DNA of 64,000 nucleotides from Brachypterus glaber (Eukaryota > Arthropoda > Insecta > Coleoptera > Kateretidae): NCBI GenBank assembly GCA_958510825.1, contig OY294046.1:49891794-49955793 (forward strand), written 5' to 3'. The notes beneath the pieces were generated by a model. It searched no databases. It was not told the origin of the DNA and saw nothing but the letters and a program-made list of their open reading frames with translations. Position numbers and translations under genes: made by a program. Below are positions 2,290 through 61,418 of the stretch, piece after piece (positions within the stretch are counted from its first letter, which is position 1; the number at the start of each line of letters is the position of its first letter).

Positions 2290-3821
2290 TATCTGTTATT
2301 TAAAATAGGGCGTTTTAATTTCATATAAATAATAACAAAATATTTTTAAGTTAACAGAATGAAAAACGGCCTTGGGCTAAAATATGAAAACCAAAAGTTC
2401 TTAATATTGCACAAAATATTGAACTCTTGGAAGAGTCAGTAGCGTACCTGCAATTAAGTAAAAATGGAAAATAAAAAAATCCCTTTTTCGGACACCACTG
2501 ATTTTTAAAATAAAGATACTATTATTAGTAGAAGTAGTAGAAGATAGATCCGTTTAATAAAATTTTTGGTAGGCTCTAGCACAACAATTATAAGACTTAG
2601 AGCTTGGTGCCCATTAAGACTTTTAATCAGTCAGTTGAAGACTAAAACACATTCAAATCTTAACCCGGGGCCATTTCCCATAAGGTGTATACGTGGTACT
2701 TTATATCTGACATACCGCAGCCATGATATAAAAGTTTATAAAAGTTCATCAAAATAAATTTAGGTGACTACATTATTTACATTTGTCTGTAATAGACTTC
2801 TTTAGTTATTTGCATATGAGCAAAAGTTTGTTTTAGGAATGGCACTAGAAATACATTAAAAAAAACCGTGTGTGCCATATATGGGATAGTATGCGGGAAG
2901 GAAATGGCTTTGTTAATGTCGTATTTTACTTTCAAGTTATAATGTGGGAAATTATAAAATTCGCGTTTATTATAATTATATTTATTATATAATACTATAC
3001 TTAAGAGAAGGCCCCTCGGGATGGGTAATTTTAAATATACTTCTTAATATAGAATACTTATAAAAATGCACCTTTTTAAATGACATGTTTAATATTTTCT
3101 GTTTTAAACATACTTATTTACTAATTATCAATAATTACGACAGATCATTAATTATATACACTGCCGGTAAGTGATTATTATGAGTGTTTAAGTTATCATT
3201 TCTGACAGGAATGTATTTTTTAAAAATATCTTTTACACATATTAATAATATAATATTACATTAATATTTTTATCTATTTAATATGGGTAAACGTCTATCA
3301 TTTATGTAAAAAATGTAATAGTAGTAATAAGGTAATAGAACAAAACGTAGAATGAAAACAGCTAGAAGGAAATGTAGATATGTAGTAAACTAACATATTT
3401 TATAAAGACATCAATTTTAAATTTAAATCAAAATTTTAAAAGTGGTAATTTTTATAGACTGCAGTTTTGGGCTGCAGATCCTCTTCATCTATGTACGCGG
3501 ATTATGATTTCACGGGAGCTGAGAAACTGAATAATTAGTCTCGATTTTCGAGACAAGAAATAGTCTAAGAGCTGGTCACCATTTTTAAACGACTTCCAAA
3601 AAGAAGTCATCAATTCGACGTGTGACTTTGTTTTTTTTTATGCTTGATCCAGCACTTTAAAACGGATGAACAGAATTGAATGAAACTTTTTGCAACTTAA
3701 AGAGGGCATTCCTGAGGTGGTCCCGAATCAATTTAACCTTCGGATAATGCCAGGTAAGCCGGATAATTAAGATAAATTTAATAATTTTAACGCAATTTCA
3801 CAACGGCTTAATTTGGTTGTA
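2290..3821. other. Spacer, no supported gene
   Basis: A/T-rich with no recognisable coding region. An open frame of 63 codons at 2566-2757 has no motif and no coding bias that I can see. Around 3695-3770 there is a weak resemblance to pogo/Tigger-type ends (repeated GGATAA), too short to call. Confidence 0.45.
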
Positions 3822-3846
3822 ATATTATTATTATTATTATTATTAT
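3822..3846 (-). repeat. (ATT)n 3' tail of the retrotransposon
   Basis: Eight trinucleotide repeats lie directly after the 3' UTR on the minus strand. Tails of this kind arise by slippage during target-primed reverse transcription in CR1/L2-like elements. Confidence 0.8.
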
Positions 3847-3990: not shown

Positions 3991-6783
3991 CTAGATTGAA
4001 ATAATTGTGTCATACTGGTTCTTGAAACTGTTTATGCTGGTGGCCTGAACCACTGATGCTGGCAAGCCATTCCATACGTTGAATATACGGTTGACTAAGA
4101 AAGACTGACGGGGTTTGGTTCGATAGTTTTGCTTCTTTAATTTTAAATTGTGTCCTCTGAGCCTGATATTCTCATTGAGAATAAACATATCCTTTATATT
4201 TACAGAGAAATGGTCATGAAGAACGTGATACGTAAATATTAAGTCTCCTCTAGTTTTTCTGTTAAGAAATGTAGGAATTCGGGCCATTTGGAGCCTTTCT
4301 TCATAGGAAGGTCTGTTTGGTCCAAATGTAATTCTACTAGCTCTTCTTTGGACAGATTCGAGGTTGTTAGAGTCTCGTATAAGTTCTGGATGCCAGATGG
4401 GACCTGCATACTCCAAAATCGGTCTAACATGCATTTTGTAAAGCTTCATAAAAGTTTGGAAACTAACATTTTTGAATGCTTTGGACAATATGTACAGTTT
4501 AGTATTGGCTTTTTTACAGGCGTTAGAAATGTGTTCCGACCATGTTAGATTTTCATTTATTGTTAGTCCTAAATCTTTTTGTGAGCGAACACTGCCTAAT
4601 TGTATACCATTGATGTGATATTGCAGACGTGGGTTTGATTTTCCGATATGCAGGACAACACATTTTTGCAAGTTGAGAGGAAGCATCCATTCTTGGCTCC
4701 ATGTGAATATGGTATTTAGATCTTCTTGAAGAGTGCCGTGTGACGTCAAAGGGTTTCCGTAAAACTTTGTATCGTCGGCAAAAGCAGAGGAGTCGGATAT
4801 GATTAGGAAAAAAAGGATAGCTGTGAAAACTAGGAAGAGAATAGGACCAAGAACAGAGCCTTGCGGGACACCACTAGTTACAATAAAGATTTCCGATAGA
4901 GATTTATTAATTCTAACTATAAACCGCCTATTAGTTAGAAAGCTAGTGATCCAAAGAAGCAATTTACCTCTAATTCCGAAATGCTCGAGTATCTTAATAA
5001 GCCTTTTTGTGGGAACGCGATCGAACGCTTTAGAGAAATCGAGATAGATAACATCAGTGGGTAGGTTTAAATCGGAAGATAACGTCCAATCGTTAATACA
5101 TTTTAGTAAATTAGTTATAACAGAGCGACCACGGACGAAGCCGTGCTGTTGCTCTGGAATAACTTTTTCATGTAGAAAAAAACTGGACATTTCTTTGGCA
5201 ATGATTGATTCCATAATTTTGGCGATAATAGGAACTAAACTTATTGGCCTATAATTATCTGGGTTGGCTTTATCCCCTTTCTTGAAAATACTTGTTATAC
5301 ATGCCAATTTCCAAGCTTCTGGAAGAACGTGATTGGAAAAGGAAAAATTCATAATTAAAGACAATGGTTTTGAAATAATACAGGAGCAATTCTTTAAAAT
5401 AACAGAAGTTATGCCGTCAAGTCCTGGAGCAGACGTATTAGAAAGTTTATTTATTTCTAACTCTATAGCCTCGGGAGTAAAGTTTATATTGGAAAGAGAA
5501 TTTACAATTCTTGGAGCGGGGATATGGGGGAGAGGAATGTTATCTGGCTCGATAGTGTATACTTTTGAAAAAGTCTCAGCTAATAGATTGGCAACTTCGT
5601 CGTCATTTCCGCAAACAGACCCATCTGGTCGTTTTAGCATTGGTACAGATACTTTTGTTTTCAATGTAGAGCGAACATATTTATGAAATGTTTTCATATT
5701 ACCATCGTTAGCTATACCGTCCAGATAGGTGCGCCTTGCATTTTTAATAGTTTGGCTTAAGGAGTTTGAAAAACTTCTGTGGTAGTTGAAATCAGTAATA
5801 TTTTCACTTGTACGATATTTGCGCCAAAGTTTTCTTTTATATCTAACCATGCTTAAGATTTCGTTATTAATCCAGGGCTTTAGTTTGTTAAAATGAATTT
5901 CTTTTTTTATTGTGTTACGATTCACGACATTTTTCAAGGTAGTAGAAAAAACGTCCCAATTATTATTGATATTTCCAGAGGACAGAAGCTCATTCCAGTT
6001 TATAGAATTAAGTTCTGATTTAACTGTTTCGTAATTAGTTATATTTAGTATTTTAATATTATTCTTAATAGGCCTGCTTGGTACAATAAATTGTATGTTT
6101 GTTGTTAAAACGACATGGTCTGATATGCTAATGGGGCTATGGAAAACAGGTTCAGTCAATAAATGTGTATCACTGGTAAGAATCAAATCAAGTAGTGAGG
6201 GATTTTGATTTCTTCTGAAACGAGTAGGACTGTTCACTAGTTGAGTAAGGTTAGAATTTAATAACAAATCACAAAAATGTGTTTCGGAATTATACGGTTC
6301 AGGAAAATTTGTAATGGGCCAGGATAGATTGGGAAAGTTAAAGTCCCCAATTATTACGGAATACTGATGAGAGTCAACGAGATCAGAGATTTTATTAAAT
6401 AAGAGTTTGTCTTTTTCGAGACCTGCATCTCCTGGTCGATATACGCATATTATTAAAAAGTTAATTTGTAATGAGGTAGATGTAAAATGAAGAGCTAAAA
6501 AATCGTTTCCTTGACCATCAAATGGAACCTCTTTAATAGTAAAATTTAAAAACTTTGAGTTATCTATGTAAATACAGGCTCCTCCACCTCGTTGAACTGG
6601 CCTATCGGACCTAAATATGGAATAGCCATCGATATTAACAAGACTGTCTGGTATATGTGGTTTTAACCATGTTTCAGTAATCATAATAATTGCGGGTTTG
6701 TGTAATTGGACAGAACAAAGGAAAGGATCAAACTTGGCAATTAAGGAGTCTAAATTTGTATACATGATGGGCCATTCTAGCAT
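3991..6783 (-). CDS. Non-LTR retrotransposon ORF2: AP-like endonuclease and reverse transcriptase
   Basis: The 930-residue product is uninterrupted. Residues 1-230 form an apurinic/apyrimidinic-like endonuclease: TETWL at 36-40, GGGACIYI near 67, GDFN at 146-149 and SDH at 221-223 are the expected metal-binding and catalytic motifs. Residues about 440-720 form the reverse transcriptase: RPISL near 512, QHGFVRGRS near 546, motif A LDFSKAFD with Asp582, motif B SGVPQGSVLGP at 637-647, and the catalytic FADD at 668-671. The C-terminal part (about 770-900) has the YVRPILEY-type and YEERL..RRLRGDL-type signature of the CR1/L2 group. It would nick target DNA and copy the element RNA at the nick. 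Oddity: the segment between motif B and FADD reads LVFTAILFFLII, where relatives usually have F(I/T)NDLP. The start codon is uncertain; homology begins at about residue 7. It ends 20 bp before the ORF1 fragment upstream. Confidence 0.93.
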   Translation of the reverse strand: MLEWPIMYTNLDSLIAKFDPFLCSVQLHKPAIIMITETWLKPHIPDSLVNIDGYSIFRSDRPVQRGGGACIYIDNSKFLNFTIKEVPFDGQGNDFLALHFTSTSLQINFLIICVYRPGDAGLEKDKLLFNKISDLVDSHQYSVIIGDFNFPNLSWPITNFPEPYNSETHFCDLLLNSNLTQLVNSPTRFRRNQNPSLLDLILTSDTHLLTEPVFHSPISISDHVVLTTNIQFIVPSRPIKNNIKILNITNYETVKSELNSINWNELLSSGNINNNWDVFSTTLKNVVNRNTIKKEIHFNKLKPWINNEILSMVRYKRKLWRKYRTSENITDFNYHRSFSNSLSQTIKNARRTYLDGIANDGNMKTFHKYVRSTLKTKVSVPMLKRPDGSVCGNDDEVANLLAETFSKVYTIEPDNIPLPHIPAPRIVNSLSNINFTPEAIELEINKLSNTSAPGLDGITSVILKNCSCIISKPLSLIMNFSFSNHVLPEAWKLACITSIFKKGDKANPDNYRPISLVPIIAKIMESIIAKEMSSFFLHEKVIPEQQHGFVRGRSVITNLLKCINDWTLSSDLNLPTDVIYLDFSKAFDRVPTKRLIKILEHFGIRGKLLLWITSFLTNRRFIVRINKSLSEIFIVTSGVPQGSVLGPILFLVFTAILFFLIISDSSAFADDTKFYGNPLTSHGTLQEDLNTIFTWSQEWMLPLNLQKCVVLHIGKSNPRLQYHINGIQLGSVRSQKDLGLTINENLTWSEHISNACKKANTKLYILSKAFKNVSFQTFMKLYKMHVRPILEYAGPIWHPELIRDSNNLESVQRRASRITFGPNRPSYEERLQMARIPTFLNRKTRGDLIFTYHVLHDHFSVNIKDMFILNENIRLRGHNLKLKKQNYRTKPRQSFLVNRIFNVWNGLPASVVQATSINSFKNQYDTIISI

Positions 6784-7605: not shown

Positions 7606-7886
7606 GGGAGGATTGATGTAGTGGTCTACCGCGTCTGTACTTGACAAGTCTACTACAAGTAGCGTGAGTTCGATTCTCACTGGCACCGATTTGCCTTTTT
7701 CAGTTAATTAATAATTGAAATTTGGCGAAGGCATAAGTGACGCGGACACTCCCCATAAAAACTGGTTCGAAAGTCAGTATAAGCCGGTGGTTCCCTCTAC
7801 TACTAGCCCACACAAGTCCTGGACTTAAGGGATGCTTAATTAAGTAGAATAGTACGAGGTTAAACAAACAAAACAAAAACAAAAAA
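7606..7886 (+). mobile_element. tRNA-derived SINE, copy 1
   Basis: The first 81 bp are tRNA-like, starting GGGAGGATTGATGTAGTGG and containing A-box-like and B-box-like RNA polymerase III promoter elements. An unrelated body follows (about 150 bp, with AAGTCCTGGACTTAAGG-like palindromic sequence) and a tail of AAACAAAACAAAAACAAAAA. A second copy, 60800-61078 on the minus strand, shares the whole structure, which proves this is a dispersed SINE and not a functional tRNA gene. The head cannot fold into a clean cloverleaf. Target duplications could not be identified, probably because the 3' flank was rearranged (see the tandem duplication). A non-LTR partner must supply the reverse transcriptase. 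Confidence 0.88.
7614..7676 (+). promoter_or_regulatory. Internal Pol III promoter (A and B boxes) of the SINE
   Basis: TGATGTAGTGG at 7614-7624 resembles the A box, and GAGTTCGATTC at 7666-7676 matches the B box. The 41-bp gap is typical of tRNA-derived SINEs. Confidence 0.7.
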
Positions 7887-8212
7887 ACTGACCAATATAA
7901 ACATATTTTAAATAAATAAGTAAAATTATCTGAATAATAATAATGGAGATTTCTCCCGTTAGATTAGACCGGGATGACGCGGACACTCCCCATAAAAACT
8001 GGTTCGAAAGTCAGTATAAGCCGGTGGTTCCCTCTACTACTAGCCCACACAAGTCCTGGACTTAAGGGATGCTTAATTAAGTAGAATAGTACGAGGTTAA
8101 ACAAACAAAACAAAAACAAAAAAACTGACCAATATAAACATATTTTAAATAAATAAGTAAAATTATCTGAATAATAATAATGGAGATTTCTCCCGTTAGA
8201 TTAGACCGGGAC
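7739..8212 (+). repeat. Tandem duplication of the SINE tail plus flank, 2 x 237 bp
   Basis: The block 7739-7975 is repeated at 7976-8212 with essentially no differences by eye. It starts inside the SINE body (at GACGCGGACACTCCCC) and includes the A-rich tail and about 90 bp of 3' flank ending TTAGATTAGACCGGGA. The duplication therefore arose after the SINE inserted, by slippage or unequal exchange, and not by a second transposition. Confidence 0.92.
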
Positions 8213-34108: not shown

Positions 34109-34311
34109 ATGAAGAAGAAGAAGAAGAAGAAGAAGAAGAAGAAGAAGCAGAAGAAGAAGAAGAAGAAGAAGAAGAAGAAGAAGAAGAAGAAGAAGAAGAA
34201 GAAGAAGAAGAAGAAGAAGAAGAAGAAGAAGAAGAAGAAGAAGAAGAAGAAGAAGAAGAAGAAGAAGAAGAAGAAGAAGAAGAAGAAGAAGAAGAAGAAG
34301 AAGAAGAAGAA
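34109..34311 (-). repeat. Long AAG/CTT microsatellite (about 200 bp)
   Basis: About 67 consecutive AAG units on the plus strand with one interruption (CAG at about 34147). It is the expanded 3' tail of the adjacent minus-strand retrotransposon. The plus-strand poly-lysine frame through it is not a gene. Homopurine/homopyrimidine tracts of this length can form triplex DNA. Confidence 0.95.
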
Positions 34312-38902: not shown

Positions 38903-39053
38903 CTATAAACCTGGTGTTTAAGGGAAAAAAACTATTAAGTATTAAGGTATTATAAACTGATGGAAAAAGGTTAAGGATATTTTGGTACCTCTAAGAAAAA
39001 ATAATCGAAAACAAAAAATGGCCCGCCTCTGTATCATTTTCTTGTTTACCTGT

Positions 39054-39137
39054 ATTGAACATGTCTGGGACGTGCTTGGTAGAGCAGTAATTGATCGTCA
39101 ACCACATTTTCATGACATAAGGAAACTAGCAATTTCT
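39054..39137 (+). pseudogene. Tc1/mariner transposase fragment
   Basis: One frame reads IEHVWDVLGRAVIDRQPHFHDIRKL, matching the NPIEHVWD.LGR.....P region near the third catalytic acidic residue of Tc1-like DDE transposases. The residues before it no longer resemble the family, and those after it to the stop near 39237 match only weakly. Only this C-terminal piece of the catalytic domain is left. It lies between the TIRs of its own element in the expected orientation. Confidence 0.78.
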
Positions 39138-39412
39138 TCCGGATTTATGGGATATCTTGGAAAAAAATCAGTTAAATCGCTTAATTTTAAGTATGCCTCG
39201 GCGAGAAAAACAGAGGTAAAATTACTCGGTATTAATTAATTTTTAGTTTTTAAAAATAATTTCTCTTAGTTTCATTAAGGAAAACATATTGTTAAATCCC
39301 GAATATAAATATATTTGAATTAATTAAATTTATTTGTTTTTTAGAAATGATTAGAGACCATGGACGTTTTATAATTTTTCTCCTAACCTGTTTTATTTCC
39401 CAGAGAAGTAAC

Positions 39413-39748
39413 ATTCTTAAAAATTTATTATTCCATCAATCTATTTTCTAATCATCGTACAGAGTGATATTAGGAGAGGTATGAGTAGTTGTCTACATCT
39501 AGAAATAGATGGCGCACAAGTCTACATCAATCTAATGGCTATATTCCTTTTGCGAGTAAAGTCTAAAAACGTTTTCTTAATCAGCGTGCAGAGTTGACTC
39601 TTGGTACTGAAGAGGGCCAGCAGCCCGAAACTGTCAGTCTACCAATATCACTCTGTACGATGATTAGAAAATAGATTGATGGAATAATAAATTAATATTT
39701 TTATAATTTTGTTTAAAATTAAAAATTTCTGTCCTTATTCTTAAAAAT
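39413..39748 (+). mobile_element. Hammerhead-ribozyme (retrozyme-like) element, copy 1
   Basis: The insert 39425-39736 (312 bp) is flanked by a perfect 12-bp duplication ATTCTTAAAAAT (39413-39424 and 39737-39748). It begins with a 47-bp segment, TTATTATTCCATCAATC and on, that is an inverted copy of its own 3' region (39646-39692). A body follows, then one hammerhead ribozyme (39590-39654), then the 3' part ending TTTCTGTCCTT. No coding capacity. It is inserted in a Tc1/mariner relic. The long duplication and 5' inversion are signs of target-primed reverse transcription. The same family is at 52737-53249. It could be a metazoan retrozyme or a Penelope-like terminal repeat; no Penelope protein is nearby. 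Confidence 0.9.
39590..39654 (+). ncRNA. Type I hammerhead self-cleaving ribozyme
   Basis: Core CTGAAGA (39607-39613), stem II GGGC-CAGCA-GCCC (39614-39626), GAAA (39627-39630), a 3-bp stem III CTG/CAG with a 1-nt loop (39631-39637) and cleavage after C39639 of the triplet GTC. Stem I pairs TTGGTA (39601-39606) with TACCAA (39640-39645), then an internal loop, then AGAGTxG with CACTCT. All conserved core positions (CUGANGA, GAAA, NUH) are present. The internal loop in stem I and loop II could make the tertiary contact known to speed cleavage. A stem III this short usually works better as a dimer, because CUGUCAG is nearly self-complementary. Expected role: cutting multimeric element RNA into unit lengths. 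Confidence 0.88.
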
Positions 39749-39879
39749 ATCCTTAACTTTTTTCTATCAGTTTAGTTATCCAAAAAACATTGGCATATAG
39801 AATATATTCTGTTTACATAAAATGAATACACTAGATAATCCTCTAACAACTTAAATATCAATACATTGATATTTATATT

Positions 39880-51841: not shown

Positions 51842-52772
51842 TTAATTGAACGACTTTTGAATTTTTTACTGAGAAAATTGAAATCCTATTATGAAAATTT
51901 ACAAAATAGACAATGTTTATTAGAGATGTAATACAGAAAGTTGCGTAAGAGTAATTCCTTTTGACTGATATATTTATTAATATTTGGACAGCGAAATCCT
52001 AATCAAAAACTTGACATTTAATTATTTTTTTTAATGAAAAAAACTATGCTTAAAATAGATAAACTACGGCAAGCATGCACTTTTTAATAGGGCCATGTCC
52101 CTCCTACCCACGGTAAGGACATTTAACCCTTTAGGTGTCTTTGGGATACTATCTTCCCACCGACTTTATACTCCTTCCAAAGCTGTGCCCAGTGATGAAA
52201 TCTATTTTCTTAATTATTTTAAGGTAGTAGTCTGGTAACTTATACCTATTTTCATGACTTCTTTGGAGGGTGGTTTTTTATAGGAAAATAAAAATGAATT
52301 ATCTTGAATATTTAGAGTGTTTTTATTTACATATTGAAAATATAAAAAAAAATTTATTTGAAAAAATTTAATAGTTTATTACTATTATTATTGTCACTCG
52401 AAGTTGGAACCTCAAAAAAAATGCACGTGGGTGGCCCGGGTGATTTTGGCTCTTGATGTTATCTGAAATCAAATATTCTTGATTATTCTTAATCTATAGA
52501 CATGTCATTCTGGTCGGAAGTACTGAAGTTAAATTTCAAGGATAAATAACAAAATGGCGGACTTTGAAAAAAAAAGTCCTTTTATTTTAGCAAAGAAAGG
52601 GTTGTAAAATAAAAAGTTAGGGGTGAAAAAAATTCTTGTTAGTACCGACGAGAACTATAAGTGTGTAGAACAGCGTTAAAATTTGAAAGCAATCGGTAGA
52701 AAAAAAGTTAGGACCCGGGCCGACCAGAAAAACAATTTATTATTCCATCAATCTATTTTCTAATCATCGTAC

Positions 52773-52837
52773 AGAGTGATATTGGTAGACTGACAGTTTC
52801 GGGCTGCTGGCCCTCTTCAGTACCAAGAGTCAACTCT
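52773..52837 (-). ncRNA. Type I hammerhead self-cleaving ribozyme
   Basis: Reverse complement is identical in its core to 39590-39654: stem I TTGGTA/TACCAA, CTGAAGA (complement of 52814-52820), stem II GGGC/GCCC with loop CAGCA, GAAA, CTGTCAG, cleavage triplet GTC. It is the downstream ribozyme of the dimer in sense orientation; cleavage at both would release a 354-nt RNA. Confidence 0.88.
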
Positions 52838-53126
52838 GCACGCTGATTAAGAAAACGTTTTTAGACTTTACTCGCAAAAGGAATATAGCCATTAGATTGA
52901 TGTAGACTTGTGCGCCATCTATTTCTAGATGTAGACAACTACTCATATCTCTCCTTATCTGGAGACTTTGAATGGTAGCAAGTTGAAGACTTGTGTGTCT
53001 CAAGCACATAGTACCACTAACGGGTGGTTAGACGTAAAATTAGTAAGGACAGAAATTTTTAATTTTAAACAAAATTATAAAAATATTAATTTATTATTCC
53101 ATCAATCTATTTTCTAATCATCGTAC

Positions 53127-53191
53127 AGAGTGATATTGGTAGACTGACAGTTTCGGGCTGCTGGCCCTCTTCAGTACCAAGAGTCAACTCT
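53127..53191 (-). ncRNA. Type I hammerhead self-cleaving ribozyme
   Basis: Same sequence and fold as 52773-52837, exactly 354 bp away. The 5' strand of stem I sits next to the junction with the inverted segment; the AGAGTTGACTC arm is just retained, so the fold is complete. Confidence 0.86.
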
Positions 53192-53652
53192 GGAATAATA
53201 AATTAATATTTTTATAATTTTGTTTAAAATTAAAAATTTCTGTCCTTACAGAAAAACAATGTTTTGAGAAAAACGCTTTTAAAGTTCAACAACAAATTTA
53301 AACCTTAAAGGTTGGACTCCGAGGCGCTCTAGGAAACTCATTATAACTCCCGAAATATTTCGAATTTCAGTCTGAAATTTTCACAGTATATTCTCAAGAC
53401 ATTGTACTTAGGCAAAAGAAAAAATTTTCGATTTTTTGAACCCAAGTTACCAGACTACTACCTTAAATTATTAGGATACAGCTGATATCTGTTAAAGACT
53501 CTGCGACATACGCATGCCACTAATTCGGTAATAAGTGGGAAGATATACGTGAGTCATAACATGAAAAAAAAAATTAGTTTTTTTTTAATTCAATGAAAAA
53601 GGTTAAATAATAATAATAATAATAAATAATTATGTAAGTACTAAGATATATG

Positions 53653-60125: not shown

Positions 60126-61418
60126 GATATAATCATAGACAAAATAAACAAATAGATTGATTTTTGACCGTCTGCGTATACTTCTGCGTCCCGACTGCGT
60201 CCTCCATTTTGATTCCAATTGTCCAACATAAAGTAAAAAAATATATATTTTATGTTGGTAACACTGTGTTGCGTTAGATAGGAATATTTTCTTTGTTAGA
60301 GATGTGTCTTTTCATTTCACTTCAGTAGTCAGTAAAAGTTTTTTTTTTGTCGTTGTTTTGTTGCAACAGTTTGTTATATATGTAAAAACTAAATCAATAT
60401 GTTATACTACACAGATATTTATTTATTTTTACCAGTAATTTAAATATAAAAATATAATTTTTAGCACACACCTCTAACATATTCGTGCAACAGGTTAACA
60501 TAACCTAATTTATGTAAGTTTTGAGTTTGTTTTCGAAGTTTTTCTGTTATTTTTTCTACGCGTTTGGTGTTTTGTGGTAGAAGGGTGAACATTTTATTTT
60601 ATTATAGACTATATATAATAGCGTTTTTGAACTTTTAAAGTCTTTCTGTGTTTTTTGTATATTTTATAGTGCTTTTTCAAGGAACTAGTAAAGTCTGCAA
60701 TGACGTGTTTTATAAAAAGTTGTAGAAACATAAAACGACTGCTACCTGCAGACAGCAGTATCATATTTTTTAGGTAAGTTTGATTTTTTTTAATATAACT
60801 GTTTGTTTAACTGTTTAACTGTTTGTTTGTTTAACCTCGTACTATTCTACTTAATTAAGCATCCCCTAAGTCCAGGACTTGTGTGGGCTAGTAGTAGAGG
60901 GAACCACCGGCTTATACTGACTTTCGAACCAGTTTCTAGGGAGTGTCCGTTTCACTTATCGCCTTCGCCAAATTTCAATTATTAATTAACTGAAAAAGGC
61001 AAATCGGCGCCAGTGAGAATCGAACTCACGATAGTAGACTTGCTATTCATACGCGCTAGCCACTACGCTATGCCTCCCATAACATAAGAAACAAATAAAA
61101 TTTTATATACCTACGCATGCCTATCATAGGTATTCGAAATCTAAGGTTACCTATGTTAGTTCTCTAAACATATTTTTATCTTATCTATGATTTGAATTAA
61201 ATAATTTCATATCTACAGAAACAGAATGATATACTTTGACAGTAAATAATAAAACATTAAAAAGTAAGGTTATGTCGTTTATTTATTTACATTTTACACA
61301 CTAATTTAAACTTCCCGGCTGATTTCTGACGTAACTTCCGATCAAAATGGAGGACTCGTAAATTTGTATATAACCTTGAGATGACAGCTCATCTATGTTC
61401 TTTGTCTATGGGTATAAT
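60126..61418. mobile_element. TIR transposon with 8-bp duplication (hAT- or P-like), copy B
   Basis: 60134-61410 is an inverted copy of 11187-12063, starting CATAGACAAAATAAACAAAT and ending TTCTTTGTCTATG. Flanks GATATAAT (60126-60133) and GGTATAAT (61411-61418) are an 8-bp duplication with one difference. It is longer than copy A only because a SINE inserted in it. It sits in the right arm of a foldback element. Confidence 0.87.
60800..61078 (-). mobile_element. tRNA-derived SINE, copy 2
   Basis: On the minus strand: tRNA-like head GGGAGGCATAGCGTAGTGG (ending side 61078) with A-box TAGCGTAGTGG and B-box GAGTTCGATTC, the same body as 7606-7886, and a tail of (AAACAAACAGTT)-like repeats. It is flanked by a 5-bp duplication ATAAC (60795-60799 and 61079-61083). 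Copy A of the host element retains the empty site. The 60-codon plus-strand frame at 60803-60985 is antisense to the SINE body and is also seen near 7700-7882, so it is not a gene. Confidence 0.9.

Follow-up and report, generated by a model that had tools for sequence, protein, structure and literature searches.

A hammerhead-bearing 354-nt element of Brachypterus glaber: a probable retrozyme whose insertion ends suggest a Penelope-type writer

Analysis of a 64,000-nucleotide stretch of contig OY294046.1 of Brachypterus glaber (the window) points to a retrozyme that carries a hammerhead sequence at each unit junction and whose copies were probably written into the genome by an enzyme of Penelope-like elements (PLEs), a reading to which we assign a probability of about 0.7. 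The directly observed basis for it consists of three hammerhead sequences, a 354-bp unit, 12-bp target-site duplications, inverted 5′ arms and swapped outer ends, all of them seen in two insertions. It is the ends of these insertions that suggest a PLE enzyme as the probable writer.

Hammerhead sequences of the window

Direct reading and a descriptor scan confirmed, letter for letter, the type I hammerhead that a first-pass annotation had placed at positions 39590–39654 of the plus strand (core, 39601–39645). Its parts are the 5′ strand of stem I (TTGGTA, 39601–39606), the CTGAAGA core (39607–39613), stem II (GGGC, 39614–39617, followed by the loop CAGCA and by GCCC, 39623–39626), the GAAA core (39627–39630), stem III (CTG, 39631–39633, a T, and CAG, 39635–39637), T 39638 and C17 (39639), and the 3′ strand of stem I (TACCAA, 39640–39645), and the predicted cut lies between 39639 and 39640. 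The outer helix AGAG/CTCT (39590–39593/39651–39654) extends to nine pairs, one of them G-U (CGTGCAGAG/CTCTGTACG). Stem I contains an internal loop and loop II measures 5 nt, the two stems having their usual lengths of 6 and 4 bp. The invariant core (CUGANGA / GAAA / UH) and the three stems of a type I hammerhead were found complete by direct reading, by the descriptor and by a covariance model. One detail of the annotation did not hold: the stem III described there, of 3 bp and a single loop nucleotide, cannot close as a hairpin, since a hairpin loop needs at least three nucleotides. In a monomer, stem III would instead be formed by A-U, C-G and U-A pairs closing a GUC triloop.

Two more hammerheads, identical to this copy and absent from the annotation, were found on the minus strand, 354 bp apart within one second insertion: at 53136–53180, with a predicted cut after 53142, and at 52782–52826, with a predicted cut after 52788. 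The 354-bp unit and the structure of the insertions had also been missed. The descriptor used (CTGANGA, GAAA and three stems with at least 13 pairs in total, G-U allowed) matched 3 sites of the window itself; across 200 dinucleotide shuffles it matched 3 altogether, i.e., about 0.015 per shuffled window.

An Rfam search, which had been proposed as a check, returned no hammerhead at gathering score, either for the 39590–39654 site or elsewhere in the whole window, and none at E≤10 for positions 39300–39800; when only 39590–39660 was searched, RAGATH-1-hammerhead was the single match (17.3 bits, E 0.41). As a control, 8 phage loci were given whole to Rfam 15, and no hammerhead was reported in them at gathering score. 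Since the same cut-off misses descriptor-fitting sites in those 8 loci, the lack of a call at gathering score in the window says little, and Rfam was set aside as sole judge of the hammerhead. At a relaxed threshold one phage site was found by Rfam (Hammerhead_1, 29.8 bits with a cut-off of 34, E 8.6e-6); the window hammerhead is further from the Rfam type I model than this site. One or two descriptor-fitting hammerheads each were observed in 8 viral contigs (L018, L021, L036, L049, L060, L079, L082 and L001).

Since Rfam at its cut-offs also misses the hammerheads of the phage loci, we built a covariance model of our own. Phage hammerheads, which served as controls only, were collected by comparing a loose hammerhead pattern with the viral_contigs collection (at least 120 loci). 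The 120 loci listed contained 73 distinct folds, 60 of them at most 52 nt long, and 48 of these 60 short folds were aligned (12 were left out by eye, several near-duplicates). The model made from these 48 sequences, without any sequence of the window, picked out three strong sites, and no more, in the whole 64 kb, each with 30.9 bits and E 6.1e-7, and the next-best match had 11.2 bits and E 0.84, the E-values of the tool being rough. Among the matches listed, near-identical sites included, stem I next to the core measured 6 bp in 102 of the 105 phage sites with a full fold, and a stem I of 6 bp was combined with a stem II of 4 bp in 90 of the 105, a count on which it bears that the search pattern itself fixed three stem II pairs. 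An independent model with E 6e-7 and the combination of a 4-bp stem II with a 6-bp stem I, shared with those 90 listed sites, thus support the interpretation as a hammerhead made in the first-pass annotation. A difference was seen in loop II, which begins with C in the window hammerhead and with U in all 48 aligned phage sequences.

Nearest-neighbour folding, which ignores tertiary contacts and proteins, predicted for the isolated 65-mer monomer an inactive fold of −20.0 kcal/mol, in which the CUG of the core pairs with the CAG of stem III, versus −10.2 kcal/mol for the catalytic fold; an explicit double hammerhead gave −32.9 versus a two-strand minimum of −44.2. The sequence CUGUCAG can pair with itself (3 bp, U-U, 3 bp), and the dimer action hinted at by the earlier annotation for the hammerhead of insertion 1 seems plausible. 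Hammerheads of newt and axolotl with a weak helix III are described as cleaving better as dimers (PMC7229834), and those of PLEs may also do so (PMC7761336). For the PLE of Anolis (PAc), it is described that the hammerhead cuts only in the presence of its protein, and that RNA insertion in vitro was still seen with hammerhead mutants (PMC11167929). Because the monomer is predicted to misfold, weak-helix-III hammerheads offer precedents for dimer action and the Anolis hammerhead depends on a protein, any self-cleavage activity of the window hammerhead is likely to be conditional.

The 354-nt unit, its two insertions and their surroundings

Taking as position 1 the base after the predicted hammerhead cut, one complete unit lies between two predicted cut sites on the minus strand (52788–53141). 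It has 354 nt and a GC content of 0.356 (36%) and is devoid of any long frame, the longest stop-free one being of 65 codons even when the unit is read as a circle. As a circular RNA it was predicted to fold at −93.3, versus −64.4 ± 5.1 in dinucleotide shuffles (z −5.7), and none of the 150 shuffles reached a value as low.

Insertion 1, on the plus strand, is bounded by two identical copies of the 12-bp target-site duplication ATTCTTAAAAAT (39413–39424, whose last 3 nt match unit positions 52–54, and 39737–39748). Between them lie exactly the 312 bp previously given as the size of the insertion (39425–39736). The insertion starts with an inverted 5′ arm on the minus strand (39422–39471) that corresponds to unit positions 54 down to 5 with 0 mismatches in 50, and continues with a forward segment on the plus strand (39472–39737) that spans unit 187–354, continues to position 98 and matches the unit of insertion 2 in all but 1 of 266 nt. 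The last 44 nt of this segment (39694–39737, plus strand; unit 55–98) form a “tail” that is present only at the right outer end. Insertion 2 lies on the minus strand, between target-site duplication copies at 53249–53260 (ATTGTTTTTCTG on that strand) and 52725–52736, so that the duplications measure 12 bp in both insertions; element and duplication overlap by 1 or 3 nt per end, which makes the duplication ends uncertain by 1–3 nt. Its inverted 5′ arm (53191–53249, plus strand) runs from unit 99 down to 41 with 0 mismatches in 59 and carries the tail at this outer end, and its forward segment (52734–53192, minus strand) comprises unit 304–354, one whole unit, and then 1–54, without internal differences.

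The flanks of insertions 1 and 2 differ, which shows them to be two insertions in their own right rather than a single block that was duplicated. Insertion 2 holds 1.3 units and insertion 1 holds 0.75 unit, and the predicted cut site is crossed without a break twice in the former and once in the latter. The inner joint of insertion 2 shows a 2-nt overlap, and that of insertion 1 is without one. The inverted arms end inside at unit 5 in insertion 1 versus 41 in insertion 2, i.e., with no fixed inner end; the arm of insertion 1, ending 4 nt short of the cut site, could represent run-off at a cut end, which the arm of insertion 2 shows not to be a rule.

Comparison of the unit with the window and reading by eye also revealed what appears to be a decayed relative at 3400–3487 (minus strand), in which a hammerhead-like stretch (3487–3456), with the letters at C3 and G12 changed as judged by eye, is directly followed by a tail-like stretch (3455–3400), the 43 intervening unit positions being missing. 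The tail-like stretch is identical to unit 45–102 in 46 of 58 alignment columns, and none of 2000 shuffles scored as high. The covariance model at E≤10 did not find the decayed hammerhead at 3400–3487, no further unit match was present there among the best six per strand, and no exact 8- to 13-mer from the start of the 3′ flank, as expected of a target duplication, recurred within 1.2 kb upstream. If this relative is real, what is conserved would be ribozyme and tail, the very parts that a cassette serving the copying enzyme would be expected to keep. Ten other weak unit matches in the window (scores of 34–42), taken from the six best on each strand, were discarded as probable chance hits in AT-rich DNA.

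A LINE with a 930-aa open reading frame (3991–6783, minus strand) containing AP endonuclease and reverse transcriptase domains was also observed; it is 48% identical to the best environmental protein, and its named relatives, among the best 120 of 310 database matches, include those of the beetles Zophobas and Tribolium. That the hammerhead-like stretch near 3455–3487 is a part of this LINE is doubted, as it lies beyond the apparent LINE end, taken by eye as an (ATA)n run near 3830.

The window is AT-rich (20–38% GC per kb) and contains two open reading frames of at least 150 aa, including that of the LINE. Insertion 1 sits at the right end of a probable decayed Tc1/mariner-like element (38953–39774, plus strand), which has inverted ends at 38953–38983/39744–39774 (94%). 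Within this element the frame 39009–39239 reads IEHVWDVLGRAVIDRQ, which we take to resemble the end of a Tc1 transposase, and a Pfam search of 38961–39236 gave no match. Just to the right of insertion 1 there is a 179-nt direct repeat (39877–40055/40247–40425; 87% identical, 370 from start to start). Other repeats comprise a perfect 237-bp tandem duplication (7738–8211), a (GAA)67 array (34111–34311; 98%), and small tandem arrays each of which recurs as a pair, 3.8 kb (16288–16539/20048–20318) and 5.0 kb apart (21518–21840/26539–26861), pointing to larger duplicated blocks. A tRNA was matched in Rfam at 61005–61077 (minus strand; 36.1 bits), with no call by ARAGORN.

Insertion ends and the proposed writing reaction

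At the left outer end, insertion 1 has unit position 54 and insertion 2 has 99; at the right outer end they have 98 and 54, respectively, so that the order is swapped. For random ends, the agreement of both ends within 1 nt would have a probability of about 1.5e-4 in two insertions, or of about 1.6e-3 if the ends are restricted to RNA sites that match the last bases of the primer. In each insertion the 44-nt stretch between the two end positions is present at exactly one outer end. Since the ends at 54 and 98/99 are swapped, copying would begin at the same two places of the RNA, each of which could serve either DNA strand. Three of the four duplication ends are ATT or AAT (chance of 3.5e-4 for pairs of random 12-mers of the AT-rich window), and the fourth, CTG, does not fit ATT.

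These features were compared with those described for PLEs. The purified PAc enzyme of Anolis is described as cutting and extending both DNA strands with a preference for ATT and as initiating internally on the RNA, without a difference between top and bottom strands, and the optional tail of 30–40 bp corresponds to the interval that separates its two start sites (PMC11167929). By subtraction of the numbers in the same paper, the start stem loop of PAc lies 85–92 nt after the hammerhead cut, versus 98 nt for one of the starts found here. The typical insert of a rotifer PLE has been described as a direct tandem that carries an inverted copy (5′ pLTR) on its 5′ side and a 31-bp tail on one inverted end; target duplications in the rotifer elements are given as 8–10 bp, with 9 bp in a typical insert of one element (PMC3846280). 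Both insertions of the window show a footprint of this Penelope-like kind, with an inverted 5′ arm, a single tailed end and a short duplication.

On this basis we propose that a tandem copy would be transcribed and that the hammerheads would cut the RNA, probably as dimers or with the help of a protein. The template would be a circular or an uncut multimeric RNA, given that the cut site is traversed uninterrupted in both copies. Cleavage of the two DNA strands by a PLE-type enzyme, at AT-rich positions spaced about 12 bp, would leave 3′ ends, each of which would act as primer for reverse transcription from one of two fixed starts, 54 or 98 nt past the ribozyme cut. Head-to-head joining of the resulting two cDNAs, one per DNA strand, may follow and would account for the inverted arm, for a tail at one end and not at the other, and for the duplicated target. 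To our knowledge, the swapped ends of the two insertions would be the first known footprint of a double target-primed reaction on a retrozyme, and no report of a retrozyme with twin priming, or with internal initiation of reverse transcription, was found in the open-access papers searched.

Identity of the element and alternative readings

The 354-nt element is very likely an animal non-LTR retrozyme, a very small parasite that would propagate by way of RNA. The metazoan non-LTR retrozymes described by Cervera and de la Pena (2020; PMC7229834) are characterized there by units of 170–400 nt, low GC, occurrence as dimers to multimers, target duplications longer than 4 bp and highly self-paired RNA. 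The element shares with them a type I hammerhead per unit of a non-coding tandem repeat (354 nt, with two hammerheads in insertion 2), a GC below about 45–50%, the lack of coding capacity, target duplications longer than 4 bp (12 bp in both insertions) and, as a prediction, a strongly self-paired RNA circle (z −5.7). Inverted 5′ arms, two fixed but interchangeable ends and an optional tail appear to be additional to the retrozymes as they are described in that paper. The satellite hammerheads of newt and axolotl are alike in their weak helix III with a near-palindromic loop that would favour dimer cleavage, and their units of 330–350 bp are similar in size; for axolotl some 126,000 such motifs are given, versus one copy of 1.3 units and one of 0.75 unit in the window (PMC7229834). 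With PLEs, as described for PAc of Anolis (PMC11167929) and the Pen families of A. vaga (PMC3846280), the element shares the inverted 5′ arm, a single tailed end, a short duplication, ATT ends, a partial tandem and a hammerhead upstream of the start sites, and it differs from them in lacking a gene for reverse transcriptase and GIY-YIG endonuclease, in its unit of 354 nt and in its 12-bp duplications, compared with 8–10 bp in the rotifer examples.

No open reading frame of the PLE kind (telomerase-like reverse transcriptase and GIY-YIG endonuclease between pLTRs) was found in the 354-nt unit, which lacks any long one and therefore is not an autonomous PLE. A Pfam scan of 21 of the 28 stop-free frames of at least 90 aa, which a decayed or distant PLE would escape, revealed no PLE gene in the window, the LINE being the only retroelement. 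Searches with GNNGCAGCCCGAAACTGNCAGTC in viral_contigs, with a 28-nt core in genome_contigs and with CTGANGAGN11CGAAACTGNCAGTC in both collections gave 0 matches; little was to be expected of them, since these collections consist of viruses and prokaryotes.

The same enzyme could also have acted on an element of other origin, namely a PLE that lost its coding part by internal deletion and left hammerhead, start sites and tail as its inheritance. We hold this as a possible, though tentative, explanation: the anatomy of the insertions is that of PLEs, ribozyme, start sites and tail follow in the order described for PAc (though the unit is far shorter than a PLE), and a derivation of retrozymes from PLEs by reduction has been proposed in a review (PMC11722881), but no trace of PLE coding sequence was recognised, with at most 65 stop-free codons on the circle, and 354 nt fits the size range of retrozymes. 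A further question is whether the hammerhead is a relic, in an RNA that no longer cuts itself and in which the sequence is kept only through the recency of the insertions. The predicted monomer energy, by which an inactive fold (CUG of the core paired to CAG of stem III) is favoured, is consistent with a relic, two insertions differing at 1 of 266 nt are too similar for selection to show, and PAc RNA with a mutated hammerhead was still inserted in vitro according to PMC11167929. All core positions are intact, however, the stem lengths are those of 90 of the 105 listed phage sites, and the PAc hammerhead likewise needs its protein to cut (PMC11167929), and we consider a relic unlikely.

Quite unlikely, in our judgement, is a retrozyme moved by a LINE, such as that at 3991–6783, through twin priming of the L1 style. 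Twin priming is known to produce 5′ inversions in L1; priming of this type starts at the 3′ end, and the position of the second primer is variable. A LINE with endonuclease and reverse transcriptase is at hand in the window as one uninterrupted 930-aa frame, about 500 nt downstream of which, on the same strand, the element's decayed relative is found, and LINEs are among the possible movers of retrozymes named in PMC7229834. However, among the matches listed none linked the unit to the LINE as far as the (ATA)n run near 3830, taken by eye as the LINE end, both ends of the insertions use the same two internal sites interchangeably, unlike L1-type priming, and the tail rule and the ATT ends fit PLEs. 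The 56-nt inverted repeat that flanks insertion 1 (96% complementary) might suggest a fold-back or terminal-inverted-repeat DNA transposon (MITE) with a chance hammerhead. This reading was rejected and is largely refuted, as the arms are not the same in the two copies (unit 54–5 versus 99–41) and do not reach both outer ends; moreover, one copy is made up of 1.3 tandem units plus an arm, whereas an element with terminal inverted repeats would repeat the same ends. We regard it as extremely improbable.

A retrozyme written by a PLE enzyme remains our preferred reading. Both LINEs and PLEs have been named as movers of animal retrozymes, PLEs being a strong candidate because retrozymes and PLEs both have type I hammerheads and a tandem arrangement and occur in common genomes (PMC7229834). 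PLEs were thus suspected, in the account given there, and the end positions in the window would add an argument on the mover of retrozymes that comes from the insertion reaction itself. We lean slightly towards a wider statement, that animal retrozymes generally are written by Penelope-type enzymes via double target-primed reverse transcription, with both cut DNA strands priming on the ribozyme RNA at two fixed and interchangeable starts, 54 and 98 nt after the cut, so that every copy would have an inverted arm and exactly one tailed end. For other genomes that bear retrozymes this gives a rule: two positions of the outer ends, one tailed end per copy, and cuts at ATT. If it is true, a ribozyme, start sites and a tail would make up a small cassette sufficient to recruit a PLE.
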